From Indolivaga macrotermitis (GTDB lineage Bacteria; Bacteroidota; Bacteroidia; Bacteroidales; Dysgonomonadaceae), in contig NZ_FQUC01000003.1 in the NCBI RefSeq assembly GCF_900128985.1, positions 1 to 64,000 of the forward strand: a DNA stretch of 64,000 bases, in the 5' to 3' direction. The notes below the pieces were generated by a model. It did not search any database and was not told the DNA's origin. It saw nothing but the letters and a program-made list of their open reading frames with translations. The position numbers and the translations under genes were made by a program. Below, in pieces: positions 8,241-25,100 of the stretch; the stretch's first letter is position 1, and every line of letters starts with the position of its first letter.

Positions 8241-8259
8241 TAAAGCCATCTTTCTAAAC

Positions 8260-8280: not shown

Positions 8281-8525
8281 TTTAATGTTCTACACTTGTA
8301 TAAGCTTATGTAGAGAATTTCAATTTAGGTAACTGGAGGCAAGAAAAGAGGGGGTATGCCCCTTAAATGAATCTTACACTCACGCTCCAATCGCATCCGT
8401 CGAATTTTTTTTATTTTTTTTCTGAGTTTTCCAAAGCGAAAAAGCTCCGAGCAGTTAACTAACACTTTGTTTGTTGTGTTAAAGAATTGTAATATAGCGA
8501 GTTATGCGTTTTAGCCCTCTGTTTT

Positions 8526-8734: not shown

Positions 8735-8909
8735 GATTTTCGTTAAAAGTATGTGAAATTCGAGAATTGTCCGAAAAATAAAAAAACGTCAACGAACAAA
8801 ATTTTTGTTGATTTGTTTTGGTGGATGAAATGTCTTGTAATTTCTAATCCAGATATTTTACAGTCTCTTCGAGTTTTTTCTTTACTTTGTATAAAGTTAA
8901 AAATTCAGC

Positions 8910-11126
8910 ATGAACCAGAATATTGATTTAGTAGGCTTAGGTATCCAAAAAGGCTTGATAAAGTTCGATGAGGATAAAAAGTCAATCACATATATACACC
9001 AGAACAAGAAAAAAAACTATACTAATCCAGAAGAGAAAGTACAGGCTTTGACTTTTCTTAAATTGGTACTTCATTATGGCTATAAACCCCAAAGGATACG
9101 GCAGTTTGTGTCTGTGAAGATGGGGTCTGATACCAAAGAAGCAGACATAGTTGTATATAATGATGATGAATGCGAAGAGCCTCATATTTTGGTTGAATGC
9201 AAAAAGGAAGAAGTTAGCGAACAAGAATTTTTGCAAGCTATTGACCAAGCTTATAGCTATGCTTATGCTCTCCCCAATGATGTAAAATATGTTTGGGTAA
9301 CGTCTGGACTCAGAAATGAATATTTTTCGGTTGATAAAAATAAAGTTTCTCGAATTGATGAACCAGATATTCCTCAAGTTGGTGTAAACAAGCTGGAGAA
9401 CTATAAATTCGTTTATGATGCAGAAGGCTTAAAACAAGAAGTTGGAAAGCAAAAATTTTCAGACCTAAAAGTTGTACTTGAAGAAATACTGACTAAGCAA
9501 TTCGAGAAAGCTCATGATGCCCTCTGGGCTGGAGGGCAATTAAACCCTTCGGAAGCATTTGATGAACTGGATAAACTTATATTCTGTAAAATATGGGATG
9601 AACGTAAATACCGACGAACTGGCGAACCTTATGATTTTCAGATTATCACAGTAGATAAAGAAGAAATAAAAGGCTACATAAGACTTTCCGCTGACCAACT
9701 GAAAGAAGCTATTCGTTTGGAGGAAAACAAACGCCTTGCCGAACGTGTAAAGTCTTTGTATGAGGAAGGGCGAAAGAAAGACCCCGAAGTGTTTCGTGAC
9801 GGAATCCGATTGACTGACGAGCGTATTCGCACCGTTGTTGGTTATTTTCAAGAGATTAATTTAGGGGCAACAGACTTAGATAGCAAAGGGCGTGCTTTTG
9901 AGGCTTTTATGGAAGAGTATTTCAGAGGGAAAAATGGACAATTTTTCACGCCTCGCCCTATTGTTGATTTTGTAACAAAGGTACTGCCAATAAAAAATGA
10001 GTCTTTGGTATTAGACACCTCTTGTGGAAGTGGAGGTTTCTTGCTCTATGCTTTAAATAAAGTACGAAAACAAGCAGATGAACGATATCCTGATTACAGA
10101 ACAAATTATGAAAAAGCTTTAAGACATAAGAGCTATTGGCACGACTTTGCCGAAAATAATCTCTATGGGATTGAGATAAACGAGCAAATATCACGAGCTG
10201 CCAAAATGAATATGATTATCCACGATGATGGTCATACTAATGTGATTACAGCAGATGGACTTCTGAACGAAAGTGAAATTCAAAAGCTAACAAAAAACAG
10301 AGGCTTTCGATACAACCGATTCAATTTTATTATAACCAATCCTCCATTCGGTTCTACTATCAAGAGTAAAGAGAAAAACTACTTGAAAGAATATAATTTC
10401 GGACAGAAAGACCCCGACTGGTTAGATGTAAAAGCAAAATCGACACCAACACCAAGAGAGAATCAAAGTACTGAAATTCTATTTATAGAACAATGCTATA
10501 AGTTTCTGGAGGAAGGCGGATATTTAGCTATCGTCTTGCCCGATGGAATTCTAACCAATAGTAGCCTCCAGTATGTGCGTGACGGTATAGAAGATATGTT
10601 TCGCATTGTAGCGGTGGTATCTATGCCACAAACGGCATTTACAGCAACAGGTGCAGGAGTTAAAAGCTCTGTATTGTTTCTCAAAAAGCACAAAGTAGCA
10701 CATACCGAAAAGCTGAAAAATAAGAAAATGAGTCTACAAGCCAAGTTGAAGAAGAAGTTTGACTATGATGTTACTTTAGAAATTTGGGACATAGAGAAGA
10801 AACAGATATTGAGAGACCTTGAAGGATTCGATAATCCGTTTATCGACCTAAGCACCACTGAACTGAAAAAGACAGATGAATATAAAGAGTGGCGTGCTGA
10901 GGTAAATGCTGAATATACAGAACGTATCAATAATCTGAAAGAAGAGTTACAAGAAGCGTACCTAAAAGTCAAACAGGAGGAACTGCCCGACTATCCTATA
11001 TTTATGGCAATAGCCGAAGATATTGGGTACGATGCCACGGGCAAGAAGACCAACAACAACGAACTGGATTATATCAGTGAGGAGCTGACTAAATTTATAA
11101 CTGCAATAGACAATGGAGCAATATAA
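8910..11126 (+). CDS. Nuclease-N6-adenine methyltransferase fusion, BcgI-like restriction-modification subunit
   Basis: This 738-residue protein joins a nuclease to a DNA methyltransferase. Residues about 35-165 resemble the HsdR N-terminal nuclease domain with PD-(D/E)xK residues D79 (ADIVVY) and E96/K98 (VECKK). From about residue 300 there is an HsdM-type N6-adenine methylase: GQFFTPRPIVDFV, SAM motif I LDTSCGSGGF near 367, and catalytic NPPF near 476. The downstream gene supplies DNA recognition, with a 14-base overlap. No motor (HsdR helicase) subunit is present, so the arrangement matches BcgI-type IIB systems, which cut on both sides of their site, rather than type I. Confidence 0.85.
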   Translation: MNQNIDLVGLGIQKGLIKFDEDKKSITYIHQNKKKNYTNPEEKVQALTFLKLVLHYGYKPQRIRQFVSVKMGSDTKEADIVVYNDDECEEPHILVECKKEEVSEQEFLQAIDQAYSYAYALPNDVKYVWVTSGLRNEYFSVDKNKVSRIDEPDIPQVGVNKLENYKFVYDAEGLKQEVGKQKFSDLKVVLEEILTKQFEKAHDALWAGGQLNPSEAFDELDKLIFCKIWDERKYRRTGEPYDFQIITVDKEEIKGYIRLSADQLKEAIRLEENKRLAERVKSLYEEGRKKDPEVFRDGIRLTDERIRTVVGYFQEINLGATDLDSKGRAFEAFMEEYFRGKNGQFFTPRPIVDFVTKVLPIKNESLVLDTSCGSGGFLLYALNKVRKQADERYPDYRTNYEKALRHKSYWHDFAENNLYGIEINEQISRAAKMNMIIHDDGHTNVITADGLLNESEIQKLTKNRGFRYNRFNFIITNPPFGSTIKSKEKNYLKEYNFGQKDPDWLDVKAKSTPTPRENQSTEILFIEQCYKFLEEGGYLAIVLPDGILTNSSLQYVRDGIEDMFRIVAVVSMPQTAFTATGAGVKSSVLFLKKHKVAHTEKLKNKKMSLQAKLKKKFDYDVTLEIWDIEKKQILRDLEGFDNPFIDLSTTELKKTDEYKEWRAEVNAEYTERINNLKEELQEAYLKVKQEELPDYPIFMAIAEDIGYDATGKKTNNNELDYISEELTKFITAIDNGAI

Positions 11127-12552
11127 ATTACCCTCACATAATAATTCCGATAAGGTTTTTATTGTCAATCGTTCTGAGTTGGAGGGACGAATAGATCCTT
11201 ATTTTTTCAAAAAAGAGTTTGATGTAATAAGCGATAAGCTATCTCATATCGAAACCTTACCCTTAAAGAAAGTAAGTGTAAAAATATTTTCAGGGATTAC
11301 TCCTTTAAGCGGTGGCGATTCATACACAGATAGAGAAAATGGGATTGCATTTATCCGAAGTGGAGATTATTCAGAAGATAATATTATAGACTTTTCTTCT
11401 ACTAATTATATTACAACCTCTGTACACAATGGCATAATGTCAAGCTCTAAAATAAAAAAAGGAGATTTACTGATAGCAATAGTTGGAGCTACGATAGGAA
11501 AGGTTGGAATATACAATTACGATGAAGAGGCAAATATCAACCAAGCAATTTGTGCCATTCGTTTAAAAGAGCAATTTATACCAGAATTTATACATATTTA
11601 TCTACTAACTGCATTAGGACAGAAGATATTAGATAGATTAAAGCGACCTGTTGCTAGAGCGAATATAAATTTAGAGGAAATATCTTCTATACAGATACCT
11701 CAAATTACCCGAACAAGACAGAAAGAAGTAGTAGATTTTTATTACAATAAGATTGACCTAAAGCAACAAAAAGAAGCCGAAGCTAAAGCCCTTTTAGATA
11801 GCATAGACAACTATTTATTGGGCGAATTGGGTATTACCCTCCCCGAAAAGGATGATAGCCTACAAAAGCGTGTATTTACTGCTCAGTTTAGTGAGATTGG
11901 AGGCGGAAGACTAGACCCATTGTCATTAAAAAATAACATATCTGATTTTCTTACAGGTAAATATAAAGAGAAAAAAATAAAAGAGATTGCTCTTAACTTT
12001 AAATCTGGATTTGGAGCAGGAAAACAAGATCAAGTTTTAGATGATAGTGGAATTATCCAGATTAGACCTACAAATATTGACGAGCAAGGTACTCTTAAGT
12101 TTGACAAGAACGTTTACCTTCCTGTTGATAATAGTTACAATGGGAGTGATTTTATAAATGTAGATGATATTTTGTTTAATAATACCAACAGCCAAGAATG
12201 GGTAGGCAAAACAGCCATCTTGAAGGAACAACAACAACTTCTATTTTCAAATCATATCACAAAAATAGTCGTAAATAAAGAAGTTGCAGTACCTGATTAC
12301 ATTTGGCTTATTCTCAATTCTTATCAGAAGAATAAAATATTTTACTCGATATGTACGAATTGGAATAATCAATCTGGAGTTGGTTTAGATTTGTTGAGGT
12401 CTTTACCTATACCTATCCCTCCACTCGAAAAACAAAACGAGATAGCTCAACATATACAAAGCCTCAGAGAGCAAGCCAAACAGCTTCAAAATGATGCAAA
12501 AGCGATACTGGAGCAAGCTAAAAAAGATGTAGAACAAATGATATTGGGGTAA
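11113..12552 (+). CDS. Specificity subunit HsdS-like, two target-recognition domains
   Basis: This 479-residue protein reads the DNA target for the fused nuclease-methylase. Two recognition domains are visible: the first at about residues 45-200 (KIFSGITPLSGG, GDLLIAIVGATIGKVG) and the second at about 290-450 (FKSGFGAGKQ, IIQIRPTNI, VDDILFNNTN). The helical spacer after the first ends near 245, and the C-terminus has the usual IPIPPLEKQNEIAQHIQSLR followed by a coiled coil. A bipartite asymmetric target would be expected. Start codons overlap the upstream gene by 14 bases, which argues for coupled translation. Confidence 0.9.
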   Translation: MEQYKLPSHNNSDKVFIVNRSELEGRIDPYFFKKEFDVISDKLSHIETLPLKKVSVKIFSGITPLSGGDSYTDRENGIAFIRSGDYSEDNIIDFSSTNYITTSVHNGIMSSSKIKKGDLLIAIVGATIGKVGIYNYDEEANINQAICAIRLKEQFIPEFIHIYLLTALGQKILDRLKRPVARANINLEEISSIQIPQITRTRQKEVVDFYYNKIDLKQQKEAEAKALLDSIDNYLLGELGITLPEKDDSLQKRVFTAQFSEIGGGRLDPLSLKNNISDFLTGKYKEKKIKEIALNFKSGFGAGKQDQVLDDSGIIQIRPTNIDEQGTLKFDKNVYLPVDNSYNGSDFINVDDILFNNTNSQEWVGKTAILKEQQQLLFSNHITKIVVNKEVAVPDYIWLILNSYQKNKIFYSICTNWNNQSGVGLDLLRSLPIPIPPLEKQNEIAQHIQSLREQAKQLQNDAKAILEQAKKDVEQMILG

Positions 12553-12577
12553 AGCAGTACGAAATAAAAAATATATT

Positions 12578-13267
12578 ATGGAAGATTTTCTTAACAAAGT
12601 ATTTAGTGACTCAAATACATCTTTTGTATTAACTAGCATTTTAGCCTCTTTTGTATCTGTAGCTTTATCGACTCTTTTAATTACCTTGAAAAAAGGGAAA
12701 AAGGAAAGAGAGAAAATTGAAGACTTGTTTTACGCACAACTATCTAAAAAATTAGAGCAAGGATTAATAAAAGAGAAAGAAGATATCGTCATACTTTTAA
12801 GTTCATTGAATCGAAAAAAAGATTCGTATGATTCAGATTTGATACTATTATTTATTATTGAAGATTATCTTGCAAGTGATAAATGTTTACCTGAACATTA
12901 TGATTTTTTGAAAAATATAGTGAAAGAGGAAAAAGAAGAGAAACCTTTTTCAGACATTCCAGAAGAGGAGCGTCGGATATTGAAATCAATAAATGACTCC
13001 GTAAAACACAATGATACAGATTCCATAAGTGATTATTTAGAACAATTAAGGTCTGTAATATCCACTAGAAATAGATTATACCTTAAAACAGCAGCATTAA
13101 ACAAATGGTCTATGCCTGTAGCAATCATTGGAGTCGTTCTTACCATAATGTTTGGAATAATGAGCTTTAATAGTGTGGATTATAGTAAAATAGAAGAATC
13201 GAATCAAAGAATTTTGAAGTCAATTCAAGAGGAAAATAACCTCAATAAATCTGATTCAATTCACTAA
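12578..13267 (+). CDS. Unknown two-helix membrane protein in the restriction cluster
   Basis: The 229-residue protein is not recognised. A hydrophobic helix at about residues 14-37 is followed by a long charged, helical cytoplasmic-type region, then a second helix at about 178-196 and a short polar tail. It begins 25 bases after the specificity gene and ends 11 bases before another membrane protein, so it is part of the same operon. It may anchor or sense for a defence response, but nothing in the sequence proves this. Confidence 0.8.
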   Translation: MEDFLNKVFSDSNTSFVLTSILASFVSVALSTLLITLKKGKKEREKIEDLFYAQLSKKLEQGLIKEKEDIVILLSSLNRKKDSYDSDLILLFIIEDYLASDKCLPEHYDFLKNIVKEEKEEKPFSDIPEEERRILKSINDSVKHNDTDSISDYLEQLRSVISTRNRLYLKTAALNKWSMPVAIIGVVLTIMFGIMSFNSVDYSKIEESNQRILKSIQEENNLNKSDSIH

Positions 13268-13278
13268 AAATAAAATAT

Positions 13279-14130
13279 ATGGGTAGGCTAACTTTATTTT
13301 TGAAAAACTTGCGAAGATGTATAAAAACACAAGATGATAATATAAGTGAACAAAAAAATATTGTATTCATTTCAGAGCATCAAGTCTGGACAAACAATCT
13401 TGAGCGAACACTAGATAGATTATATAAGTGTCGAGACCTTGAAATAGCCAACCTTTGGCAACGTTCTGTATTTTTGGCAGTTTTCTTAACATTATGTCTT
13501 ACTGGCTACGGGATATTAGTTTCAAAATTATTTTCTTTAGATACAATTTCAGAAATTAACAAGCAAACTTTTACCCATATTGGAGCGATTGGTATTGGTA
13601 TTTTAGGTTTTTTATTTTCCCTTATTTGGATAATGATGGCTAAAGGCTCAAAAGCATGGTATGAAGTGTATGAAGGGGCAATATACAATTTTGAAGAAGA
13701 ATTTCAAGTCGATTTACAGATACCTGATATGTATCGTATGGGGATAAACGATGGAGTTGATGGAAAATTGAACAGCTCGATAATATCAGTCAAATCAGGA
13801 GCTTACTCTCCTTCAAAAATTAATATAGTAATAGGTCAGATATTTTTGTTGCTATGGATTGTTGTTATGCTAATTCATGGTTTTTTCTTATTTTCGATAG
13901 AACTCCCTTTATGTGCTTGTTGTTGGGCTATACTATCCCTTTTATTCTTAGTCGGATTGAGTACTTTTATAATAATACAATCTAAAAGTAGCCACCTATC
14001 AAAAGAGGGTATTAAGGAGAGAGAGGGTTATAGAGAAAGTGCAGATAAATTTCGAGAAAAAAGAGATTCCGAAAGAAATTATGAGGATGTCTATTATTTT
14101 AATACTGACAAATATTTGAAAAATAAATAA
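13279..14130 (+). CDS. Unknown four-helix membrane protein in the restriction cluster
   Basis: This 283-residue protein has paired membrane helices at about residues 64-86 and 98-119, and again at about 181-205 and 208-230. The motif KGSKAWYEVYEGAIYNFEEEF right after helix two resembles a pattern in small bacterial membrane proteins of the RipA type, a weak similarity. The C-terminal 45 residues are strongly charged and probably helical. Neighbour gaps are 11 bases on each side. Function is unknown; a membrane effector or scaffold paired with the preceding protein is one possibility. Confidence 0.8.
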   Translation: MGRLTLFLKNLRRCIKTQDDNISEQKNIVFISEHQVWTNNLERTLDRLYKCRDLEIANLWQRSVFLAVFLTLCLTGYGILVSKLFSLDTISEINKQTFTHIGAIGIGILGFLFSLIWIMMAKGSKAWYEVYEGAIYNFEEEFQVDLQIPDMYRMGINDGVDGKLNSSIISVKSGAYSPSKINIVIGQIFLLLWIVVMLIHGFFLFSIELPLCACCWAILSLLFLVGLSTFIIIQSKSSHLSKEGIKEREGYRESADKFREKRDSERNYEDVYYFNTDKYLKNK

Positions 14131-14141
14131 CGAATATTACC

Positions 14142-15503
14142 ATGTTAACCACAGAGGCAAAAACAAAAATAGAATCTATTTGGGATAGCTATGTAGCTAC
14201 AGGACGGCTTGTATATGATCTCAAAGGCAATCGACTTGAGGATATAGACCAACTACGCTTGGAGGCGATCAAACATCTAATGATATTTATTCAGCAATTT
14301 TTGGATAAGTCTATAGATGTATATGAATTTAAGACTAATGTTGATAGTTACAATAAGCGGAATAACCTATGGGGCTTCACTGCAATGAAGGGGCAAATGT
14401 TCTTCAATCAGCTGGTAAAGTATAATGAACAGCAGATAGATAAATTGACAGCAATTCTTGCCTTATGTATTGTGATGCCAAATAATTTGCAGGAAGCTCT
14501 GACCAAGATAGATAAATTGGAGTCATTTTGTAAAGTGGCTTATGAAAAAGCGGAAGACAGACGAAAAACAGCTAATCCCAATTCTGTCGGTTATTTCTTA
14601 TCTTATTTTTGGCAAGTGCAAAATCCCGAAGAGTGGGCTATACTGTACACTTCCCAAATTAGAGCCTATCAAGAGTTAGATATCTGGAAGGAAAAGCCAA
14701 ACCAAAAAGAGACCTATCAGTTTTTCTATCAGCTAAATGAAGAAATTCGTCTTGCGTTGAAAAACTATACTAAAGCAAGTATTTCAAATTGGGATATCGA
14801 ACACGCATTTTGGGAGTATAAAGGTAATCCAAATAAAACAGCAGAGGTTAATTTACCCAAAATCGGCAATCAGCCCAAAGAATCTCCATCTATTCAACCT
14901 CAACCAGAAGTTGAGGTAGCTTTACCTCTCAAGGCGAGTTTTGAACTATCGGAGTATCTAATACCTAAAGTTGCTAAGCTTGTTGAATTGGGTAGCCAGA
15001 TAGGCGTTACTTCGTCTGCTAAAGGAGATGAATTTGAAAGGCTTGTTGCTGAGATATTTAAACAACTGGATTTTGATGTTCAATTATTGGGACAAGGTAC
15101 AGGAAGAAATCCAGATGCGATAATTCGATTCAGAGAGGAGAATACGGCTTTTATAATAGATGCAAAAGCGTATACCAATGGTTATACTCTTGGAACTGAC
15201 GACAGAGCTATTAAAGAGTATATAAACCACCATTGCCCTAAACTGAACAAGGAGGGGTATAAGAAAATAGGGTTCATTATTGTCAGCAATTCGTTCAAAT
15301 CTAATTTTGACAGCTTTATCAATTCTATTACTTGGGATACCGAAATAAAACGCTTTATACTACTCACTTCTGAGGCTTTGTTATACCTATTGGCATTCAA
15401 GACCAAAGACCGCTTACCTCTGACCACTATTATAGAAAAATTAGTGGGATTAGGTAATCTGATTGAAGCAAAGGATATTATAGCAGAGTTTGACGATGTA
15501 TAA
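14142..15503 (+). CDS. Nuclease with C-terminal FokI-type cleavage domain
   Basis: This 453-residue protein ends in a domain (about 290-453) that resembles the FokI cleavage domain. PD (D325) and DAKAY (D340, K342) match the FokI residues D450, D467 and K469. The flanking text follows FokI too: NGYTLG after DAKAY, the helix AIKEYINHH, and FIIVSNSFKSNF where FokI has FLFVSGHFKGNY. Residues 1-230 are helical and do not resemble the FokI recognition domains, so the target or trigger is unknown. A linker rich in Pro/Gln joins the two parts. It is last in the rightward five-gene cluster. Confidence 0.78.
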   Translation: MLTTEAKTKIESIWDSYVATGRLVYDLKGNRLEDIDQLRLEAIKHLMIFIQQFLDKSIDVYEFKTNVDSYNKRNNLWGFTAMKGQMFFNQLVKYNEQQIDKLTAILALCIVMPNNLQEALTKIDKLESFCKVAYEKAEDRRKTANPNSVGYFLSYFWQVQNPEEWAILYTSQIRAYQELDIWKEKPNQKETYQFFYQLNEEIRLALKNYTKASISNWDIEHAFWEYKGNPNKTAEVNLPKIGNQPKESPSIQPQPEVEVALPLKASFELSEYLIPKVAKLVELGSQIGVTSSAKGDEFERLVAEIFKQLDFDVQLLGQGTGRNPDAIIRFREENTAFIIDAKAYTNGYTLGTDDRAIKEYINHHCPKLNKEGYKKIGFIIVSNSFKSNFDSFINSITWDTEIKRFILLTSEALLYLLAFKTKDRLPLTTIIEKLVGLGNLIEAKDIIAEFDDV

Positions 15504-15511
15504 AAATAAGA

Positions 15512-15533
15512 AGAGCCATATCTCTATGGCTCT
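15512..15533. terminator. Bidirectional terminator between convergent genes
   Basis: AGAGCCATA (15512-15520) pairs perfectly with TATGGCTCT (15525-15533) around a 4-base loop. It sits between the stop of the FokI-like gene and the stop of the oppositely directed lipoprotein gene. T-runs are weak, but position and symmetry suggest it ends transcription from both sides. Confidence 0.7.
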
Positions 15534-15540
15534 CATTCTG

Positions 15541-15999
15541 TTATTTCTTAAATACCTCCCATCGCAAGTCGTTGCTTCCTTTCATCTTGAACTCTGTAGG
15601 GCTAGAGATGAGTAGATTTGAATAAGTTCTATTACCAGTTTCAGTGAACGATAAGCCAATAGATGTTGCATTATGGTCGATGTAATAATACTTGTCGAAC
15701 GATTGACCATTGTAGTAGGTCACTGTCAGCAAACCGTGTATTTTTCGTTCTCGTCCTTCTCCAGTTGCATAATTCTCATCGAGAACAACCACCTTTGCAG
15801 GATTGTACTGCTCCTTGAATGTAATAGTTGTAGTGCCAACTTCATGTACATACTCGAACGTGCCATTAAAGACAAATAGAGCCTTTTTTTGAGCCTCACT
15901 CATCGAATTGCCTGCGTTGTCGTCATCGTCGTCGCTAGAACATCCTACAAATGAAAAACTAACCACCGTCAACATTAAAAATAAAAATGCTTTTTTCAT
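15541..15999 (-). CDS. Small unknown lipoprotein
   Basis: The 152-residue protein begins with a lipoprotein signal: MKKAFLFLMLTVVSFSFVGC, where C20 would be lipidated, followed by SSDDDDD, an acidic stretch typical of Bacteroidetes lipoproteins sent to the cell surface. The rest (about 35-152) has alternating strands (TFEYVHEVGTTTITFKE, KYYYIDHNATSIGLSF) suggesting a small beta-barrel such as a lipocalin-like fold. The gene is alone, with a structured stretch upstream and a convergent terminator downstream. Its role in the element is unknown; surface exclusion or phage interference would be guesses. Confidence 0.82.
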   Translation of the reverse strand: MKKAFLFLMLTVVSFSFVGCSSDDDDDNAGNSMSEAQKKALFVFNGTFEYVHEVGTTTITFKEQYNPAKVVVLDENYATGEGRERKIHGLLTVTYYNGQSFDKYYYIDHNATSIGLSFTETGNRTYSNLLISSPTEFKMKGSNDLRWEVFKK

Positions 16000-16046
16000 A
16001 AAAGTAAATTATAAAGTATCCATCAGCCCCGAATTGGAAGGTTTTA

Positions 16047-16270
16047 TAAAAAAGAAACGTGGGAACTGCTAACTCATTGTAGTAAGAGGCTCTGGTAAGC
16101 CCATGACACAAATAAGCAACAGCCCCACGCCTTTTATGAAGACGTGGAACATTCTGCCTATTATCTATGTGTCAATTTGAATTTACCAGATTCCTTACTA
16201 CAAGATAAAGATAGACGTTTCGTATATTTTCAATAAGTATGGAGTCTCCTAACGTTTTAGTTAACTCCAT
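16047..16270 (-). ncRNA. Candidate structured non-coding RNA, rod-like
   Basis: Nested perfect helices are visible: GAAACGT (16054-16060)/ACGTTTC (16215-16221), TTGTAGTAAG (16077-16086)/CTTACTACAA (16194-16203), CTGGTAA (16092-16098)/TTACCAG (16183-16189), TGACACA (16104-16110)/TGTGTCA (16168-16174), and a CCACG/CGTGG tip (16125-16129/16143-16147). A separate hairpin, TATGGAGT/ACTCCATA (16238-16245/16264-16271), lies at the 5' end on the minus strand. On that strand a TAnnTTTG box precedes it and six Ts follow the outer helix. It might instead be the leader of the lipoprotein mRNA or a DNA hairpin. Confidence 0.5.
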
Positions 16271-16274
16271 ATGG

Positions 16275-16282
16275 CAAAGATA
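16275..16282 (-). promoter_or_regulatory. Possible -7 box for the structured RNA or lipoprotein gene
   Basis: The minus strand reads TATCTTTG here, an exact TAnnTTTG. It lies just after the minus-strand terminator of the terminase-like operon and just before the 5' hairpin of the candidate RNA. No good -33 box is seen, so support is partial. Confidence 0.4.
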
Positions 16283-16283
16283 T

Positions 16284-16314
16284 AAAAAAGGTCGGTATCG
16301 TAACGAAACCGACC
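16284..16314 (-). terminator. Terminator of the terminase-like three-gene operon
   Basis: GGTCGGT (16290-16296) pairs with ACCGACC (16308-16314); read on the minus strand the hairpin is followed by six Ts. It lies 27 bases beyond the stop of the last gene of the leftward operon. Confidence 0.8.
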
Positions 16315-16341
16315 CTCAATAATTACATTTAGCTTGTTGTA

Positions 16342-16944
16342 TTATATCCTTTGGATATCAGCCATAAGACGCTCTTCATTTAGCTTAAATGCCCCTGCTT
16401 CTTGGTTGTGGTCAATGTAGTTCATTGGAAAGAATCCGCTATTGACAAGCTCACAGACTGTATGAGTTAACTCCATCATTTTGCATTGTTGCTCAGATAG
16501 CTCGATATGGGAAGCCTCCTTGACATATTTATCTAGGACTTCTTCATCAACCCAACACAATCTAGTCATAGAAGGAAGAGGATACCTTATTTTGAACTGC
16601 CATTCTTCAAACGGAATACCTAGAGAGCTGAATCGACTAGACAATGAGGATAGATGTGGAATAGTATTCATATAGCCTGCTAAATATTTCTTCCTCAGTT
16701 CATCTAAAAAATCTCTAGGAAAATCAGCATGATTCGCCAAAAATATAGATACAGGACGTACAAAAATATCTTTTGTCTCATCTTCCTTATCAACAGCCCT
16801 CATTATTCGTTCTAGGTCTTCTCTGCAAAATTTGACATCCCCAAATTTGCACGCTTCAATAATAATACCTTCGAAAGCACGACACACTTCTTTATACTGA
16901 CCTCGTAAATATGCTTCCTTGGAAGCTAAATAGATTTTTTTCAT
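16342..16944 (-). CDS. Unknown protein, 200 residues
   Basis: The protein is not recognised. It is soluble, mostly helical and balanced in charge (MKKIYLASKEAYLRGQYKEVCRAFE at the start). No signal, membrane segment or catalytic motif is evident. Its start overlaps the stop of the 60-residue gene by four bases and it is followed by a terminator, so it is the last gene of a tight operon headed by the terminase-small-subunit-like gene. This places it in the element's core or packaging-interference module by context only. Confidence 0.72.
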   Translation of the reverse strand: MKKIYLASKEAYLRGQYKEVCRAFEGIIIEACKFGDVKFCREDLERIMRAVDKEDETKDIFVRPVSIFLANHADFPRDFLDELRKKYLAGYMNTIPHLSSLSSRFSSLGIPFEEWQFKIRYPLPSMTRLCWVDEEVLDKYVKEASHIELSEQQCKMMELTHTVCELVNSGFFPMNYIDHNQEAGAFKLNEERLMADIQRI

Positions 16945-17123
16945 AACCCTAAACTTTTAATAATATTCTCAACTATAGAGCCACTTTGTTGTGGGCTTGG
17001 CTCTTTACTCCCTTTTTGTAATTCGTCCACAATTCCGATTTCTAGAATAGTGTCCCGAATAAGTTTTTCCTGTCGTTCTTTATACTCCTGTGACGGCTGT
17101 GGAGTATCAAATAAATTATTCAT
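16941..17123 (-). CDS. Unknown small protein, 60 residues
   Basis: This short protein (MNNLFDTPQPSQEYKERQEKLIRDTILEIG and on) is hydrophilic with no recognised motif. The evidence for it being real is position: a one-base gap from the terminase-like gene upstream and a four-base overlap with the gene downstream, the pattern of coupled translation. The first half looks helical, which would suit a small adaptor or regulator, but nothing more can be said. Confidence 0.65.
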   Translation of the reverse strand: MNNLFDTPQPSQEYKERQEKLIRDTILEIGIVDELQKGSKEPSPQQSGSIVENIIKSLGL

Positions 17124-17124
17124 G

Positions 17125-17679
17125 TTAATTATTGTTTGTTGAAGCTTCTTCTTCTTTTAACTGTTCTACTCGTTCCCTTTTGCGTTGCTCCTGCTTCTCC
17201 TTATAATATTTGCAAAGGTGGCACGTGAGCGGAAGATAAAAGACCACCTGTTCTTTTTGTGTAGGAGAATCTTTATGATAACCCATGAGCTTATTGATAG
17301 CTTCCAAACAAGCAATCTTTATTCGCTCATCCTTTGTTCCATCCATAATTGCTTTATAGCGTCGAATTTGGTTGTGACGGGTTAGGTAATCATCATCCAG
17401 CTCAACATCTTCGATGGATTGAGTTGAGGAGGGTAAACTTTCATCTGAGGATGAGTTAACTCCTATCGTATTGAAGGTTAACTCCAACTCCTTTTCTGTC
17501 AGATATTCTGCAACATGAGGAGAGGTCTTTAATCGAGAAGCCTGAACTTTCATGCTGTCTCCTTTCGCTGTCGAATTCGGATGAAGAAGTCTATATGCTT
17601 TAGTAGCATCCCATCCAGCTAATACCAAATCGCAAAAAGCAAGCTCTTTGGTTGTTAATTTATTGTCTTTTTTAACCAT
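17125..17679 (-). CDS. Phage terminase small subunit-like protein
   Basis: Residues 8-66 follow the pattern of terminase small subunits: LTTKELAFCDLVLAGWDATKAYR, then ASRLKTSPHVAEYLTEKE, a DNA-binding helix-turn-helix arrangement. A later helix (RIKIACLEAINKLMGYH) also fits family members. In phages this protein picks the DNA to be packaged; in phage-inducible islands a satellite copy redirects packaging to the island. The C-terminus is highly charged and, at 184 residues, length is normal. No large subunit, portal or capsid gene is near, which fits a satellite rather than a prophage. Another DNA-binding role is possible. Confidence 0.62.
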   Translation of the reverse strand: MVKKDNKLTTKELAFCDLVLAGWDATKAYRLLHPNSTAKGDSMKVQASRLKTSPHVAEYLTEKELELTFNTIGVNSSSDESLPSSTQSIEDVELDDDYLTRHNQIRRYKAIMDGTKDERIKIACLEAINKLMGYHKDSPTQKEQVVFYLPLTCHLCKYYKEKQEQRKRERVEQLKEEEASTNNN

Positions 17680-17730
17680 ATTGAAAAGTTAAGTAATTTA
17701 TAATATGAATGTTATTGTTGTTTTCTGTCT

Positions 17731-17808
17731 GTGGTAATCTGGTTAAAACCTAACCACGAGTACCTGTGTGTATGTGGTATGGTATATCTGAGATATACCT
17801 ACTACCAC
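17731..17808. repeat. GTGGTA/TACCAC repeats with a strong palindrome (origin candidate)
   Basis: GGTATATC (17781-17788) and GATATACC (17792-17799) form an 8-bp stem with a 3-base loop, extended by GTGGTA (17774-17779)/TACCAC (17803-17808). GTGGTA also occurs at 17731-17736 and TACCAC again just after the palindrome. It lies between the RepA-like ATPase gene and the terminase-like gene. An iteron-type replication origin or an operator is plausible; a terminator for the ATPase transcript is the plain alternative. Confidence 0.45.
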
Positions 17809-17826
17809 GTACCACAATACCATATA

Positions 17827-18993
17827 CTAAAAATCAATTTTTATTTGTTCTGGAATTATAGAGTATTTATGCCTGTTACAGTTTGGTTTAGCTAAATTCT
17901 TAATCCACCCTTTCTTAAGATAATATTTGATAAATTCACGAGCAGGCTTATCGGAACACACAAATCGGATTTCAATTTTTTCCCCTAAATTTCCTTTTGT
18001 ATATATCGTATCCACAGATTGAAAAGTGTCTTTTAAAAACTGTATATGAGTTTTATCTTCGTAAGATGAAGGACTAATCTTAACTTTTTTAGTTTCTCCA
18101 TTCTTGCCTCCAGACTTAAGATTCTCAAAGTCTACTCTGTCCCCTGTTATATCAAAACACAAATTCTCATCCATTCTTAGCACATAACTAGCTACTTTCT
18201 CAGACTCTGCCAGATAGTTCGCCTTGACAATACAGAAATGCCGTAAGTTTGATTCAAAACTATCCTTGCGAAACTCAATAACGCATCTGGATTTGGCTTC
18301 TATAGCTTGACTTCCAATTACATTATTTTTACTTGGAGCTAGTTCTTCCGTACGTTTTCCTGTATGATGCAAGAAGCATACGGAGCATTCATATTTTATG
18401 GCAATATCCGAGAATGGTTGCAAGAACTGTCTGACTTGGTTGTTTTGGTTTAAATCTTTGGCTGTATATAAATCGCCAAAGGCATCTAAAACAATGAGGT
18501 CGACGGGAAGATCCTCTAATACAGAGCGTAAAATTTCTATGAGATTATCTGAATCTGTCGTGCATAAGAAATTTTTCAATTTGTCTTTTGGTACTTTTAA
18601 AGTCTGATTCTGCTTGCGTACTAAAAAAGCAATAGACATTTTATCATCCTCAGTTGAGATATACAAAGCTCTTCCATGTTTGCCATTGAATTGATTTCCT
18701 AAAAAATCTATTTGTCCTGCCACAGATAAAGCTAATTGACGTAAAATCATACTTTTTCCTGTATCACTAGCCCCGACCAAGAACCAAAGCCCAACCATCG
18801 GAAATAATCCAAACAATTTTGAGATTTCCTCTATTTGCATATCTATCAGCTGACTCCCATCTGTAATACAAGGTGGTAATTTTAGCTCTATATTCGCATC
18901 CAGAGAAGCAGATTCCGTTTTTTCGTTGTTAACAACAACTTGCGGTTTATAGTCCCCACCATTTTGAGAGGACTGCATAGGATTCTTCTCCAT
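17827..18993 (-). CDS. RepA-like hexameric helicase-type ATPase (AAA_25)
   Basis: This 388-residue protein contains a RecA-fold ATPase: Walker A GASDTGKS at residues 74-81 with K80, a Walker B-like LIVLDAFGDLY, and a sensor region CSVCFLHHTGKRTEE. This combination marks the RepA/AAA_25 group of replicative helicases in plasmids and integrated elements, which unwind an origin for element replication. The C-terminal 100 residues look like a winged-helix DNA-binding part (FLKDTFQSVDTIYTKGNLGEKIEI). It starts one base after the HTH gene's stop. Palindromic repeats beyond its 3' end may be its target. Confidence 0.8.
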   Translation of the reverse strand: MEKNPMQSSQNGGDYKPQVVVNNEKTESASLDANIELKLPPCITDGSQLIDMQIEEISKLFGLFPMVGLWFLVGASDTGKSMILRQLALSVAGQIDFLGNQFNGKHGRALYISTEDDKMSIAFLVRKQNQTLKVPKDKLKNFLCTTDSDNLIEILRSVLEDLPVDLIVLDAFGDLYTAKDLNQNNQVRQFLQPFSDIAIKYECSVCFLHHTGKRTEELAPSKNNVIGSQAIEAKSRCVIEFRKDSFESNLRHFCIVKANYLAESEKVASYVLRMDENLCFDITGDRVDFENLKSGGKNGETKKVKISPSSYEDKTHIQFLKDTFQSVDTIYTKGNLGEKIEIRFVCSDKPAREFIKYYLKKGWIKNLAKPNCNRHKYSIIPEQIKIDF

Positions 18994-18994
18994 A

Positions 18995-19288
18995 TCAAGC
19001 TTTTTTCGAATGTTTGTACTTACCTGTCTTTTTTTCTACTACCGCTAGGTCTACTTCTTTACTGAGAAACAGAGTTCTATCCGAAATTTTATAGGCTTTC
19101 AGACGTCCATCATTTACCCAATTATTTATAGTTTGGGGTGTGACATAGAACTTAGCACATAAATGCTCTATTGTTAGATATTTTTTATTATCTTCTTTCT
19201 GTAAATCTGCTATCGCCACAGTCACAGCATCAGATATCATCTGTTTTAGATTATCTGGAGACATTTGAATCAAAATACTATTAGTCAT
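18995..19288 (-). CDS. Small helix-turn-helix protein, excisionase-like
   Basis: This 97-residue protein has an N-terminal helix and then a MerR/excisionase-type winged helix: YLTIEHLCAKFYVTPQTINNWVNDGRLKAYKISDRTLFLSKEVD. Proteins of this size beside an integrase and a RepA-like ATPase in Bacteroidales elements bind DNA to direct excision or to regulate the early genes, comparable to AlpA in phage-inducible islands. It is separated by one base from the ATPase gene and by over 400 bases from the next gene upstream, so it probably heads the ATPase transcript. Confidence 0.78.
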   Translation of the reverse strand: MTNSILIQMSPDNLKQMISDAVTVAIADLQKEDNKKYLTIEHLCAKFYVTPQTINNWVNDGRLKAYKISDRTLFLSKEVDLAVVEKKTGKYKHSKKA

Positions 19289-19701
19289 GCTTTTAAAATA
19301 AAAAATTTAACAAAAGGAGCTGCAGCAACCTTGAAATTGATTCAAAAGTATAATTCCTGTGATTTTTTAGAGAAGCTTAAAATATAGCTATAGTAGGATA
19401 TTATAACCTGCTGATTATCAGTTAATATTTCAATTGATTTTATATTTGATTAAAAAAGAAGTAAACATTTGTGATTAAGAAGTTATATAGTATTCGAAAT
19501 TATCTATTGCATTATTGCTAGATATTAAAAACAAAAAGAAGCGTTCGTATTAAGCTGATGTTCAGCGATATAATAAGTATTTCGTTAGACATTCCATTTT
19601 TTAAATAGTTGCTAATTGTAGTGTAGCAAAAGCTTATACATAAAAACACCCCCACTACAAAGTATGTAATAGGGGCGGTGTAAGGGTAGTATTGGTATTG
19701 A
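19289..19701. other. 413-base gap in the element; possible promoter
   Basis: This AT-rich stretch separates the integrase pair from the HTH-ATPase genes. On the minus strand TACTTTTG at 19343-19350 fits a TAnnTTTG box and would drive the HTH gene, with an AGGAG-free leader of about 55 bases; no -33 partner is clear. The terminator at 19643-19682 ends the upstream genes. No coding frame of note is seen in the remainder. Confidence 0.45.
19643..19682 (-). terminator. Terminator of the integrase operon
   Basis: On the minus strand ACACC-G-CCC pairs with GGG-GGTGT (one bulged G), followed by five Ts. It begins 20 bases past the stop of the 226-residue gene downstream of the integrase. Confidence 0.65.
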
Positions 19702-20382
19702 CTAAACTAACTCCATTTGATATATCTCATTTTGAGCATTTCGATAATCAATTAACATTTCAATGCAATCAATCAAATCCAGATTTAGATTTTTATATTT
19801 TTGAATTATTACAGAGTCAATAATGGTTAAAATCCATTCTGAAACTTCCTCTTTTTTCTTGTCCTTGAAATGTGTTTCATGTTCCATAAATTTGAATAAG
19901 GGAACTAAAGATTCTAATAGCTTCTTTCTGAAACTATTTCTATTCTTTCCTACTTTGGATTTTTCTTTGCTAGCCCGTTCTTTGATTATAGGTTGTATGG
20001 CTTCTAATATCTCTCGTAAGGTATGTCTATCTTTAATTCTCGTAGATTCTTTATTTTCATCATCTTTACCCAAAGAAAACGATATATGAAACAGGAGGTT
20101 ATCTTTTCTTGTTAACTCCTTATACAACTGGTCTGCTTCAAATCTAGCCTCCCTATCTCTTTTTGCATTATTGGGGTCGGCTTTCTGATTAAGATAGAGA
20201 GCGTATGACATAGTATAACCGAAAAAGGTTAAAATAATATCCTTCTGTTCCTCAGTGAATTCTGCAAGAAAGCCTTTAAATTCATCTATATTGTTATTCG
20301 AGAATTCAGTAAATGCAAAATTAGCTATATCTCTATAACGAGAGAAGCCATATTTATTCGGGATTGCATATTTATTTATCAT
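19702..20382 (-). CDS. Unknown protein downstream of the integrase, 226 residues
   Basis: The protein is not recognised. It is charged and mostly helical, rich in Lys and Glu, with no signal or membrane segment. It begins 12 bases after the integrase stop and a terminator follows its end, so the two form one transcript. Such a partner might adjust integration or excision, but there is no motif to support a specific role. Confidence 0.7.
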   Translation of the reverse strand: MINKYAIPNKYGFSRYRDIANFAFTEFSNNNIDEFKGFLAEFTEEQKDIILTFFGYTMSYALYLNQKADPNNAKRDREARFEADQLYKELTRKDNLLFHISFSLGKDDENKESTRIKDRHTLREILEAIQPIIKERASKEKSKVGKNRNSFRKKLLESLVPLFKFMEHETHFKDKKKEEVSEWILTIIDSVIIQKYKNLNLDLIDCIEMLIDYRNAQNEIYQMELV

Positions 20383-20394
20383 AATAGATTTTTC

Positions 20395-21756
20395 TTATCC
20401 AATTTTCATTTGTACACGTTGAAAATATCCATTGTCTGCAAGCATTGCTTTTTCTTTATTGTTTAATTTGAGGTAAGTTTTTAGTTGTTCCTCACTCTCA
20501 TGTCCAGATATGGCTATTATTTCTGACAATTTACATCCTGCTTGTTGCATATTTGTACACAATGAACGACGGCAACTATGAGTTTTAACCATATCGCAGA
20601 ATCGTTTAGATATTTTAGCCTTCATGCCAGCTTTATTTTGATTTATTTGAACTATCTCTGTAAACTCAGCCTTTTCGCATATTTTCTTTATATAATCATT
20701 AATCTTCTGGTCATAAGTCTTAGGTAAAGTGCCATTGTATTTATTCAATATCTCTTTAACCCTCCAATCTAAAGGTATATATACGGTCTTATCCGTTTTC
20801 TCTTGACATAATTCAACATATTCTAGTCCATTGGATAACTTTGTAATCATGCTAGAATTAATTCGCTTATAATCACTCACACGCTGTCCTGTTAAGCATC
20901 CGACAACAAAAACATCCCTTACCTTCTCCCATGCAAGATTATCGGATAAATCCATATTATAAAGTATTTCAATTCTTTCTTGAGTTAAGTAAACATTGTC
21001 TACTTCTTCATAATTAGCGACAAAATCAGAGTTTTCTATCTCCCTATTGTTATGGAGCTTCATATCTTTAGCTGCATACATGACAGTCTTTAATATTTTA
21101 ATCATACGCCCTACAGTATTCGCAGCGTATTTTCTATCGAAGATCAAATAGTTTTTAAAGTCTCCATGAAAATCCATAGTGATATCTTCAAAATCTATCA
21201 CTTTATTTCTGTCATTTTGATAGTCGTTTAGCCGATTTCTAAAACCCTTAATGCTTTTAACTGTACCTTCACTTACTTTTTTATTCGAGCGTTTCTTCAA
21301 CCTTTTACCTGTTTCGAGGTCGTTAATATACTGTTCTATAAATTTATTTAGAGTTATTGGTTTTTCTATTACTTTAGGTTTTAATTCTAGGTAATAAGCA
21401 TTTATAACTTCTTGTAACCATTCGCTAGTATAATCTCCAGAATGGCTGTTAAAAGCTTGAACAATGGAGTCTTTCAGTCCTCGAATTACTTTGTTGGTTT
21501 CTTGTATTAAATCATTGCTTTTATCTGTTTCTTCCACTAACTCATTTCTCTCTTCAATAGAAAGACCTTTGGTGTCTTTACTCGTTAGATATTTTAAATC
21601 CAACTCTTCTTTTTTGAGATTCCATGACTTAATTCTTATCGTAGTCTCAGTGACTCCATAGAGAGCTTTTTTCGCATCAATATTATATCTAACTCGAAGT
21701 ATTGCAAATTCCGCATCTTTTTTGCTAGTTCTGTAGGTTAATTTTAATGTTGCCAT
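20395..21756 (-). CDS. Tyrosine site-specific recombinase (integrase)
   Basis: This 453-residue enzyme joins and cuts the element at the tRNA-Cys att sites. The catalytic set is complete: R292 in LTGQRVSDY, H393 and R396 in HSCRR, H in ISGHES, and the nucleophile Y428 in LKTYLKL. The N-terminal part (about 1-110) is an arm-binding region and 140-240 is the SAM-like core-binding domain, the layout of Bacteroidetes transposon and phage integrases. It reads inward from the right end; the minus-strand box TATCTTTG at 21779-21786 may be its -7 element. The predicted arm site at 21801-21821 lies right behind it, so integrase binding could repress its own promoter. Confidence 0.94.
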   Translation of the reverse strand: MATLKLTYRTSKKDAEFAILRVRYNIDAKKALYGVTETTIRIKSWNLKKEELDLKYLTSKDTKGLSIEERNELVEETDKSNDLIQETNKVIRGLKDSIVQAFNSHSGDYTSEWLQEVINAYYLELKPKVIEKPITLNKFIEQYINDLETGKRLKKRSNKKVSEGTVKSIKGFRNRLNDYQNDRNKVIDFEDITMDFHGDFKNYLIFDRKYAANTVGRMIKILKTVMYAAKDMKLHNNREIENSDFVANYEEVDNVYLTQERIEILYNMDLSDNLAWEKVRDVFVVGCLTGQRVSDYKRINSSMITKLSNGLEYVELCQEKTDKTVYIPLDWRVKEILNKYNGTLPKTYDQKINDYIKKICEKAEFTEIVQINQNKAGMKAKISKRFCDMVKTHSCRRSLCTNMQQAGCKLSEIIAISGHESEEQLKTYLKLNNKEKAMLADNGYFQRVQMKIG

Positions 21757-21800
21757 AACTTTATTTTATCTCTTTATACAAAGATAAAGTTATTTTTTAG

Positions 21801-21821
21801 TTGCACGGTATTTGCACGGTA
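21801..21821 (+). repeat. Right arm-type integrase site (predicted)
   Basis: TTGCACGGTATT followed by TGCACGGTA differs from the left copy at 8260-8280 in two of 21 bases. It lies 116 bases inside attR and overlaps the upstream part of the presumed integrase promoter. Confidence 0.65.
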
Positions 21822-21937
21822 AATGTTTTAATTAAACAAGTTAAATTTTATATCAACAACAATAAAATATTGGTAATTAACATACTTATAACATATTCTT
21901 AACTAATCAAAACTATACAAATATTAATTTTGAGGTT

Positions 21938-21951
21938 CGCCAGGAACCTCA
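21938..21951 (+). repeat. attR core
   Basis: CGCCAGGAACCTCA matches attL exactly. The copy is embedded in a 19-base inverted repeat, GAGGTTC (21932-21938) and GAACCTC (21944-21950) around 5 bases. To its left the sequence is no longer tRNA, so this is the element-chromosome junction. Confidence 0.85.
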
Positions 21952-21963
21952 AATGCATGTTTA

Positions 21964-21998
21964 AAAACCTTGTAAGTTGCTATCTTACAAGGTTTTTT
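21964..21998 (+). terminator. Chromosomal terminator displaced from tRNA-Cys
   Basis: AAAACCTTGTAAG and CTTACAAGGTTTT form a 13-bp stem with a 7-base loop and a T-run. It stands just outside attR with no rightward gene before it. Before integration it would have directly followed tRNA-Cys, so it is most simply the original terminator of that transcript. Confidence 0.75.
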
Positions 21999-22131
21999 TT
22001 ATACCCAAAGTGGTGACCACTTCAGTATATGATGCGTTAATTAGAATAGAATCTGCTTCGCTGGATGTGCTCAATACTTCACATCAATAATAGTCAGGAA
22101 TATAACTTAATTTTTAATTCGTAACTGCTCC

Positions 22132-25100
22132 TTATTTTCCATTATTCTGTTTCTCAAATTCTTTCGGAGTCATCCCATACTGGCTCTGAAACAACTTAAT
22201 AAAATATGAAGGAGAGTTAATTCCTATCAGATAACAGATTTCACTTACCCTGTATTTTCCCTCCTGTATCAGCCGGACGGACTCCTGCAGGCGGACCAGT
22301 CGTATAAAGTCGGTCGGAGTTGTGTCGGTTATAGTTTTTAACTTCCTGTGTAAGCTCGACCGGCTCATGTGGATAGCATCCGCAAGACCTTCTACATTAA
22401 AATCCGAATCAGATATATTCTTATTTATGATTTCTATCATGTTATTTAAGAATTGCTCATCCGCCCTATTCATTCCCGATTGCTGTACCGGCAAAAATGG
22501 CTTTCGGAGGAAGAGTTCTCTTTCGCGTCGTCTATTATTCATCAGCGATATTAATAAGGTCTGCAGATATTGAAAAGAAAAAGGTTTTTCTACATAAGCA
22601 TCCGCACCAATTTCCAATCCTTTTATTTTGCTGCTCAGGTCGTTTTTAGCAGTAAGTAGAATTACTATTATATGGCTGTATTCGATTTCCGTTTTTATCT
22701 TTCTGCACAATTCGAATCCGTCCATTTCGGGCATCATAATATCGCTGACTACTATGTCTATGCTCTTTAGTTTCAGTACTTCCAATGCTTCTATTCCGTT
22801 CTTTGCTTTTTCTATCACATAGTTTTCATTTAGTTTTTCAGCAATGAAGTTTAGCATATCAGGATTATCTTCTACCACAAGAATTGTTTCAGCTTGTTTT
22901 TTCTTTCCCGGTTCTTCCTCATGTTCAACGATGTAGTCGGAAGGTTTAGGTATATCCTGCTCTTCTTCGGCAGGAATATGCGACAACGGAATTTTCAGGA
23001 TAAAATCATTACTTTCCACTGCCGAAGAATAGAATAAATATCCATCATGCAATTCGGCTAACGATCTAGCCAGAGACAGACCTATTCCTGACCCTGTAGT
23101 TTTGCGATTTAGTGCCTCCATTTGAAAAAACGGCTCAAATATCTTTTCCTTCAGTTCTTCAGGTATCTGCTCGCCATCATTCGATACTTGTACCGTAAAA
23201 TAGGTACTATCCGCCACTACAGAAATTTCTATTTCCTGTTCGGAATATTTCATGGCATTTGACAATAGATTATTTATTATCTTGGTAATTCCATCTCTGT
23301 CTACCATCGCATAAATGGGTTCGTTGTCTACGGCCGATAGTTTCAAGCTTTTCTTTTCAAAAGAGGCCTGCTGCTGAAACCTGTCTGTAATTTCTTTCAC
23401 CAAAATGATCATATCTGTTTTGCGGAAGCTCAATAAAAATTTGTGACTGTTTACCTTCCTGAAATCCAGTAACTGATTAATGAGTTCCAAAAGGTTGTTC
23501 GTATTCTGTTTGATATACCGCAGATTTTTATTTACCTTTTCGTCCGGAATATCCATTTCAATGATGGATTCCAGTGGACCGCTTATCAGCGTAATAGGCG
23601 TACGGATTTCATGGGCAATGTTGGTAAAGAAATCCACCTTCGCTTCATAGAGCTCGCGCTCTTTCTCTATTTCAAACAGTTTTTGCCTTTCGGTATTCCT
23701 TTTCTGATATTTTTTCAATGAAAATTTGATCGATAAATACACTATCGTAACAAAGAGAATAAAATATATAAAATAGGCGATGTTTGAAGCCCACCATGGG
23801 GGTAATATAATAATCTCCAGCGAAGCTCCTTTTTCGTTCCACAAGCCATCGTTATTTGATCCCTTCACTCTGAATGTGTATTTACCCGGAGGCAGTTTAG
23901 CGTAAGACGCACTGTGGTTATTTTTAGTATATATCCATTCCGTATCTATATTTTCCATTTTGTAGGCATACATATTGGCTTGGGGGGCGGTATAACTGAG
24001 CGATACAAAATCAAGGATAATATTCGCCTGATTATATGGTAATTCTATTTTTTCGGTGTACAGAATACTCTTTTTCAGAGGCGAGTCTTCCATATCGGAA
24101 CCTATTTCCTTATTGAAGACAGACAACTTGGTAATATACACAGGGGGCATATATTTATTCTCTTGAAATTCATCCGGTTTAAAGGCTATCAAGCCCTCCA
24201 TACATCCGAAGTATAATTTCCCCGAGCTGCTCATCAACCCCGACTTATAGTTAAACTGATTGGATAATAAACCCTCATTCTGCGTGAATATTCTTACGGC
24301 CTTACTTTCTGGGTCGAATTGTACCAGCCCTGCATTGGTGCCGAACCAAAGGTTATGGTTTTTATCCTCCAGTATTTTGTATGCTACATCGTCGGGTAAT
24401 CCGTCTTTTATAGTGTAAGACACAAACCGCTTGTCTTTCTTATTGTACATGCAGATACCCCCGCGATCGGTCGAAAACCAGATTTGCCCTTTGTGATCTT
24501 CTGTTATGCTGCTGACGGAGTTGGAACTCAACCCATTCCTATCTTCAACTTTGTGATGAACGATAATGTCTTGTTGCTGGTCGTACTGAAAAATTCCATT
24601 ATTAAGAGTTGCTACCCATATAGTTCCTCCCGAATCTTCCATAATGTCGAACATGTAGCTTGGCTCAAATTTTGTTATCTGTTTGAACTTCATACTGCCT
24701 TTGTCAGCCACAAAGATACCCCAGGCATTACCCAGCCAGATTTTTTCGTTATGGTCTTCGCATAGGGCATATACGCTTTCTTCGTTCAGCCCCATGTCGA
24801 GGGACGAATAGTGTTGTACTCTATTCTGTGGCATATGAATTATGTCCAGCCCGTTCTTGAAGAATCCCGCCCAAATATTGAAATCCTGCACCAACAGGGC
24901 AAGAGCTTTATTGTAAGACAGATTATTTACCATACTGAACTTTTGTGTCTTCGGGTCGAAAGTGGATATACCGCTATCTTCTGTTCCTACCCATATTGTC
25001 CCGTTTTTATCCTCTTTTATTTCTCTTATCCGTTTCGAGTGGAGTGATCCTGATTCGCTGGTCGGAAAATATTTTTCAAACTTATTATTCCCGGTGGGGA

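Follow-up and report, generated by a model that had tools for sequence, protein, structure and literature searches.

Small integrated elements of Bacteroidota that are associated with tRNA genes and need a helper include the nonreplicating Bacteroides units and other integrative mobilizable elements, and these carry a mobilization protein. The island described here differs from them: no mobilization protein was found in it, and it has instead a gene which very probably encodes a terminase small subunit (TerS). It occupies positions 8168-21951 of a 64,000-nucleotide stretch (hereafter the window) of the genome of Indolivaga macrotermitis (positions 1 to 64,000 of contig NZ_FQUC01000003.1, assembly GCF_900128985.1). 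We consider it likely, with a probability of about 0.72, that this element is a phage satellite integrated in a tRNA-Cys gene, which hijacks the DNA-packaging motor of a tailed helper phage; the helper relation and the packaging are inferred from sequence.

The closest described systems are the Staphylococcus aureus pathogenicity islands (SaPIs) and other Gram-positive phage-inducible chromosomal islands (PICIs). According to PMC6092414, these resemble the island in having tRNA-type integration with an integrase, a size of about 15 kb, no structural genes, a replication module followed by the (here candidate) origin, a TerS gene in the same operon direction and cargo at the far end. Unlike them, the island has neither a divergent Stl/Rpr repressor pair nor a primase, its cargo is restriction-like and not virulence-related, and it belongs to another phylum, Bacteroidota; kinship in sequence is not claimed. 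Gram-negative PICIs such as EcCICFT073 share with the island, according to the same paper, a small AlpA/MerR-like helix-turn-helix (HTH) protein in place of the repressor, an integrase and a replication gene, whereas EcCICFT073 is without a TerS and relies on cos sites. The word fragment 'bacteroid' is absent from the text of that paper. Searches of the open-access literature, which leaves most subscription papers and preprints outside, gave no paper that by its title or abstract opening deals with a phage satellite of Bacteroidota, and priority is not established.

The 184-aa protein encoded at 17125-17679 (minus strand) has an N-terminal HTH domain and a C-terminal YLPLTCHLC tail, and both profile searches and a structure model indicate that it is very probably a TerS. 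Residues 4-102 matched PHROG_51, terminase small subunit (E=5.5e-8), and no non-terminase family matched, which bears out the initial annotation of the protein as terminase-small-subunit-like. Seven viral models matched at E<=0.001, and all five named ones are terminase small subunits. The predicted structure, proposed earlier as a check of the same claim, was good in the N-terminal domain (block means of 80-89 for residues 11-70), and this domain superposed best on solved small terminases, those of SF6 (two entries), an SPP1-like phage, E217, PaP3 and NV1. The seven top rows among solved structures (Z 5.7-7.3) were six small terminases and one phage protein, the next row having a Z of 4.3. 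With the SF6 TerS domain the Z was 7.3 and the rmsd 1.9 over 55 residues, so that the TerS DNA-binding fold is present, with a moderate Z and in the N-terminal part only. A Foldseek search of the 184-aa model against the PDB gave nothing at E<=0.001, its first two rows still being small terminases, and a PDB search by sequence gave only chance-level matches. Nothing was found with the single window TerS in the scan of viral contigs or by tblastn against phages.

Relatives of this TerS occur in two of the five other genomes of the genus (G001 and G005), in three IMG/VR contigs (L035, L066 and L067) and in six LoVEphage-type records, which annotate it as a hypothetical protein; the LoVEphage record notes 'No HHsearch hits' for it, and in Dulem virus 40 the relative is an unannotated ORF. 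The Bacteroides and Phocaeicola phages LoVEphage, BI-TP1 and PV4-TP1 share the TerS-like family and a YLPLxCxxC tail with the island and differ from it as complete phages of about 71 kb with a large terminase (TerL), portal and capsid; they represent a possible helper type. In all three IMG/VR phages the relative sits in the TerL-portal operon. The TerS gene of L035 overlaps the portal gene which comes after TerL (portal PF05133, 2.1e-33; TerL PF03237, 1.5e-13), and in L066 and L067 the order is TerL, portal, a MuF-like gene and then the TerS relative (gene names assigned by eye). A member of the TerS family was present in six of six examined records with the TerL type of L035 and LoVEphage. 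The search profile covered three of these, L035, LoVEphage and L055 (which has the same protein as G001); the remaining three, G778, G779 and Dulem virus 40, lay outside it, and the G779 copy has an internal stop. A profile made from the phage members only matched the window TerS with an hhalign probability of 98.5 % (E=2.9e-15) and the ordinary Terminase_2 protein of L033 with 5.8 %, and because of this near lack of a match to L033 we regard the window-type TerS as a separate TerS branch.

These data also bear on whether the 184-aa protein is some other DNA-binding regulator, which we consider very improbable. Such a protein could lack Pfam and NCBIfam matches, as this one does, and could lie several kb away from TerL, as the homologues in LoVEphage and the G001 prophage do; against this stand the position in the terminase operon of three phages, best fold matches that are all to small terminases, and the phrog_51 match. 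Order-wide searches with the TerS found matches in 3 of 393 genomes in one search and 4 of 393 in another, among them a different TerS adjoining its own TerL (G239) and a short match (G270). Two phage genes may be reannotated: 9538-10104 of LoVEphage (MW660583, L041), annotated as hypothetical, and 12197-12766 of Dulem virus 40 (L042), where the record calls small ORFs on the other strand, each probably encode a TerS.

A second island with a TerS of the window family was found in G005 (L007 4501-17000, 12.4 kb), between 58-bp tRNA-Leu repeats. It encodes an integrase, the TerS, a type III-like Mod/Res pair (read by eye) and AAA_21, DUF4276, Fic, Xre-type and T5orf172 proteins; no window-type ATPase was found in it. 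Repeats of this kind were also sought for L051, L053 and L054; only L053 gave any, a 12-bp AT-rich one. The G005 TerS and that of the G001 prophage are 50 % identical over 176 columns, unevenly distributed: the DNA-binding half has 22 identical positions of 62 (35 %), compared with 53 of 62 (85 %) in the C-terminal half and 24 of 26 (92 %) in the tail. If the tail docks on TerL, as we presume, a packaging pirate would need just this combination of an altered DNA reader and a kept docking tail. In G005 this signature is seen directly; the window TerS stands further from its phage relatives, and so for it the signature is only inferred.

The ends of the element were set at 8168 and 21951 on the basis of 14-bp repeats and inward arm-like repeats at both ends, giving 13.8 kb. 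The initial annotation had placed the element at 16342-21756, which proved too narrow: this is the right-hand 40 % of the element, and the att repeats add the genes at 8910-15999. The attL core (CGCCAGGAACCTCA, 8168-8181, plus strand) is part of the 3' end of the tRNA-Cys (GCA) gene at 8109-8180 (plus strand; ARAGORN, Rfam), the integration target, and is repeated exactly in the 14-bp attR core at 21938-21951 (plus strand), just outside the integrase start. Integrase-arm-like repeats of 19 bp, each with two [TC]GCACGG heptamers, lie at 8260-8278 and 21801-21819 (plus strand); the heptamer occurs four times in all of 8001-22200, twice at each element end. An integrase with specific att sites and a size around 15 kb (here 13.8 kb between the att repeats) are PICI features that the island has. 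The same tRNA-Cys gene seems to be a hotspot, occupied by other elements in the sister genomes G001 and G002. In G002 (L018) the occupant seems to be an integrase-HTH element, and in G001 (L017) the tRNA-Cys gene is followed by lysis-like phage genes, named by eye only, up to the contig end.

All seven named core genes were confirmed, and all are on the minus strand. The integrase, small HTH protein and RepA-like ATPase of the initial annotation are indeed present: a tyrosine integrase at 20395-21756 (Pfam Phage_integrase 2.4e-9; phrog_1 7.1e-20), an HTH_17 (excisionase/AlpA-type) DNA-binding protein at 18995-19288 (Pfam 2e-6; phrog_66 1.6e-5) and an AAA_25 RepA-like ATPase at 17827-18993 (Pfam 1.5e-22; PHROG primase/helicase 3.2e-18). 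Between integrase and HTH genes, 19702-20382 encodes a 226-aa protein without significant family in Pfam, PHROGs or NCBIfam. The TerS gene is followed by genes for a 60-aa protein (16941-17123) and a 200-aa protein (16342-16944), the start of the latter overlapping the stop of the former, and by a 152-aa lipoprotein-like ORF (15541-15999, minus strand) without Pfam match. The 60- and 200-aa proteins had been proposed as packaging-interference factors, a role for which we found no support. Neither has a family match; scans of the 60-aa protein with Pfam and NCBIfam, and of the 184- and 200-aa proteins with Pfam, NCBIfam and PADLOC, were uninformative. The 200-aa protein had no match in phages; in 344 genomes it matched, apart from itself, a single sequence weakly. 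Its predicted model was unusable (mean pLDDT 44.8). A terminator-like hairpin (19647-19677, minus strand) lies between an integrase-226-aa unit and an HTH-ATPase-TerS unit. This operon split is suggestive only, because four terminator-like hairpins were found compared to 2.6 in shuffled sequences and the promoter scan gave fewer sites than in shuffles.

Families of structural proteins, large terminases and relaxases were not found among the 13 main ORFs (Pfam; PHROGs for 10 of 13), in line with the earlier statement that capsid, portal, large terminase and conjugation genes are absent. Thus the island has, by Pfam and PHROGs, neither the phage structural or lytic genes that PICIs also lack nor the large terminase, portal, capsid and tail genes that mark a prophage, and, by Pfam, not the relaxase that marks an integrative mobilizable element. 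A decayed prophage which has retained integrase, ATPase and TerS would account for three genes of phage type, the ATPase being of the primase-helicase type, and is nevertheless highly improbable. No other phage late gene is left, the operon is tight and intact, and the element is compact, with clean att sites on either side. Ten other elements have the same core, integrase with TerS appears again in G005, and the ATPase has only weak matches (<27 % identity) among 50,697 phage records.

An imperfect palindrome at 17769-17816, between the ATPase and TerS genes, is a candidate replication origin or pac site. Its core, GGTATATCTGAGATATACC at 17781-17799, has the form GGTATATCT-N-AGATATACC; with up to three mismatches allowed, the window contains a single copy (0.03 expected). 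The hairpin folds far better than shuffles (z -4.45). According to PMC6092414 the PICI origin comes after rep, and by this analogy we prefer to read the hairpin as a possible origin; the alternative reading is a candidate pac site. Among 84 loci the exact core was found only in copies of the window element and in the G359 element (L029), where it likewise follows closely on the ATPase gene (z -4.2); it had no match in the viral contigs. At the corresponding place L005 has a different palindrome with GGTTAGTG repeats (z -3.4). Eight stretches were folded, of which one control upstream of an HTH gene gave a z of 0.0. Three of the other seven (L005, one of two L029 stretches and L052) were below -3 and four were not, and the folding of the L030, L031 and L051 stretches does not stand out. 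The hairpin is thus not general across the elements with this ATPase core.

The AAA_25 ATPase is rare: a search across the order found it in 5 of 393 genomes and one across the class in 6 of 395, the own genome counted in both. One further locus came from genome contigs, and with the window there are eleven elements in total. Their usual plan, read by eye, is integrase, variable ORF, HTH protein and ATPase, to which restriction-type cargo and a Toprim-like primase are added in several; in L032 and L051 reading by eye showed no integrase next to the core. Repeats of 18-49 bp at tRNA ends were found at L005, L029, L031 and L050. A search of Bacteroidota genomes for the core had been suggested earlier. 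Ten other elements with the ATPase core were found, and a TerS was recognised in only two of the eleven. The second of these is a 7.3-kb island of G227 (L031 7193-14518) with a 23-bp tRNA-Arg repeat. Like the window element it has integrase, variable ORF, HTH protein, AAA_25 ATPase and then, as its last gene, a TerS, here of P27 type (Terminase_4 6.8e-15) and of a family unlike the window TerS; it also differs in having a Toprim-like primase and no recognised defence cargo, and is possibly a minimal satellite. Its TerS was the only one recognised among 42 proteins from the ten relatives, a set chosen outside integrases, ATPases, primases and restriction genes (Pfam, 22 families; PHROGs, best 25 of 37), in which no relaxase was found either. 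The single ATPase protein gave nothing in the viral-contig scan and one weak match in a plasmid search.

Some observations on these relatives may be added. The G359 island (L029) is at tRNA-Met, and its primase (9587-10705) is 37 % identical to that of LoVEphage (5.5e-75). A 114-aa protein of L029 (5373-5717) is weakly like a small protein from the head-gene region of a LoVEphage-type phage (E=3.1e-5; 951 ORFs). In L005, the last gene of a 6.4-kb ATPase-core island (11442-11723) encodes a DUF5681-like 93-aa protein, considered as a candidate further TerS type; in two Bacteroides phages its relatives are found near integrases and not near TerL.

The scarcity of TerS among the ATPase-core relatives would also fit an integrative mobilizable element that has an oriT mimic by which a conjugative element moves it, and in which the TerS-like gene is incidental. 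Relaxase-less islands are known in other phyla, according to the passage on SGI1 and NBU1 in PMC11389934. We consider this explanation improbable, since neither the element nor the 42 ORFs of its relatives contain a relaxase or other conjugation family, and three islands have kept an intact TerS, of two unrelated types.

The left half of the element is a plus-strand, restriction-modification-like cargo operon (8910-15503). It encodes an HsdM-type N6 DNA methyltransferase with an HSDR_N domain (8910-11126; PADLOC MTase_I 1.4e-184; N6_Mtase and HSDR_N_2), an HsdS specificity subunit (11113-12552; PADLOC, Pfam), a 229-aa protein without significant family in Pfam or PADLOC (12578-13267), an 8xMP membrane protein (PF24838, 13279-14130; Pfam 3.1e-25) and a Mrr/FokI-type nuclease (14142-15503; FokI_cleav_dom 1.1e-10, Mrr_cat 3.7e-5), all on the plus strand. 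No HsdR was found in the element. This is possibly an unusual restriction or defence operon, which plausibly defends the carrier cell against competing phages. Copies of ATGTAGGGTATGTAGG, direct and inverted, occur at 8522-8734, between attL and hsdM, and might be regulatory, replication or packaging sites. SusC/SusD-like genes downstream, named by eye, are consistent with Bacteroidota.

With such cargo, the locus could also be a defence island which does not transfer or is transferred otherwise, its TerS being a decoy that poisons the packaging of an invader while the island is not packaged itself. A decoy would suit the restriction-type cargo of each of the two TerS islands in the genus, the lack of a window-type ATPase in the G005 island and the absence of a matching TerL from the own genome. 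Integrase, att and arm sites are intact, however, and the replication ATPase comes with a conserved hairpin, as fits a mobile replicon; redirected packaging would serve both jobs at once, and we consider the decoy unlikely.

The satellite that we propose instead would act as follows. During growth of the helper phage, Int and the HTH protein would excise the island, and the ATPase would replicate it, starting at the hairpin that directly follows the ATPase gene. With its N-terminal HTH domain the island TerS would read a pac site of the island, and with its conserved C-terminal tail it would dock on a helper TerL of the type of L035, LoVEphage and the G001 prophage, with the result that island DNA would be packed into helper capsids.

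Several findings weigh against this proposal. Pfam and NCBIfam are silent on the 184-aa protein, Terminase_2 not being matched even at E<=1, and its structure model, with a mean pLDDT of 67.1 and a pTM of 0.37 for the whole protein, is good in the N-terminal domain only. Identity between the window TerS and its phage relatives is only 16-25 % in the DNA-binding half, and 32-52 % in the tail. As a TerS was recognised in 2 of 11 ATPase-core elements only, that core alone is no proof of phage mobility. Neither a divergent repressor pair nor a primase was found. The TerL type linked to the window TerS family is present in G001 and absent from the own genome, and the helper would therefore have to come from outside or be of another type. 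A TerL-like gene does lie on contig C15 of G000 (L084 8533-9693; phrog_2 1.4e-36), among ordinary chromosomal genes; it was rejected as sign of a resident helper, as no phage genes were recognisable by eye in 20 kb. Three further TerL matches in G000 were weak.

The initial annotation had called the locus PICI-like. The satellite-like gene plan, the tRNA integration and the size of 13.8 kb uphold this, and strict membership does not follow. The island works like a SaPI or PICI in the scheme proposed here but is not classed as a PICI, because it has no divergent regulator pair and no primase, and because the G001 site leaves the att criterion unclear. By Pfam, no CI/Stl-like repressor or divergent regulatory pair was found, the HTH_17 protein being the only regulator-like protein and the core genes all lying on the minus strand, and no primase was found, the replication gene being the AAA_25 ATPase with its downstream hairpin. 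The att criterion, as worded in PMC6092414, is that PICI att sites are never occupied by prophages, and it is touched by the tRNA-Cys site of G001.

It is possible, at somewhat less than even odds, that Bacteroidota own an independently assembled class of terminase-piracy satellites. Their TerS would have been captured from LoVEphage-type phages, with the DNA-recognition half changed and the TerL-docking tail kept, and the G005 island would be the extreme form, with little beyond integrase and TerS beside defence cargo and with replication left to helper or host. LoVEphage, which is of the potential helper type, is reported from 97 of 1,241 gut viromes, about 8 % (PMC12629997). For LoVEphage-type phages the TerS family supplies a TerS candidate, annotated there as hypothetical, and the conserved tail provides a rule, open to testing, for which island goes with which helper phage. 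If the proposal is true, satellites that live on phages with this type of packaging would give restriction-type defence genes an overlooked way to move between Bacteroidota.

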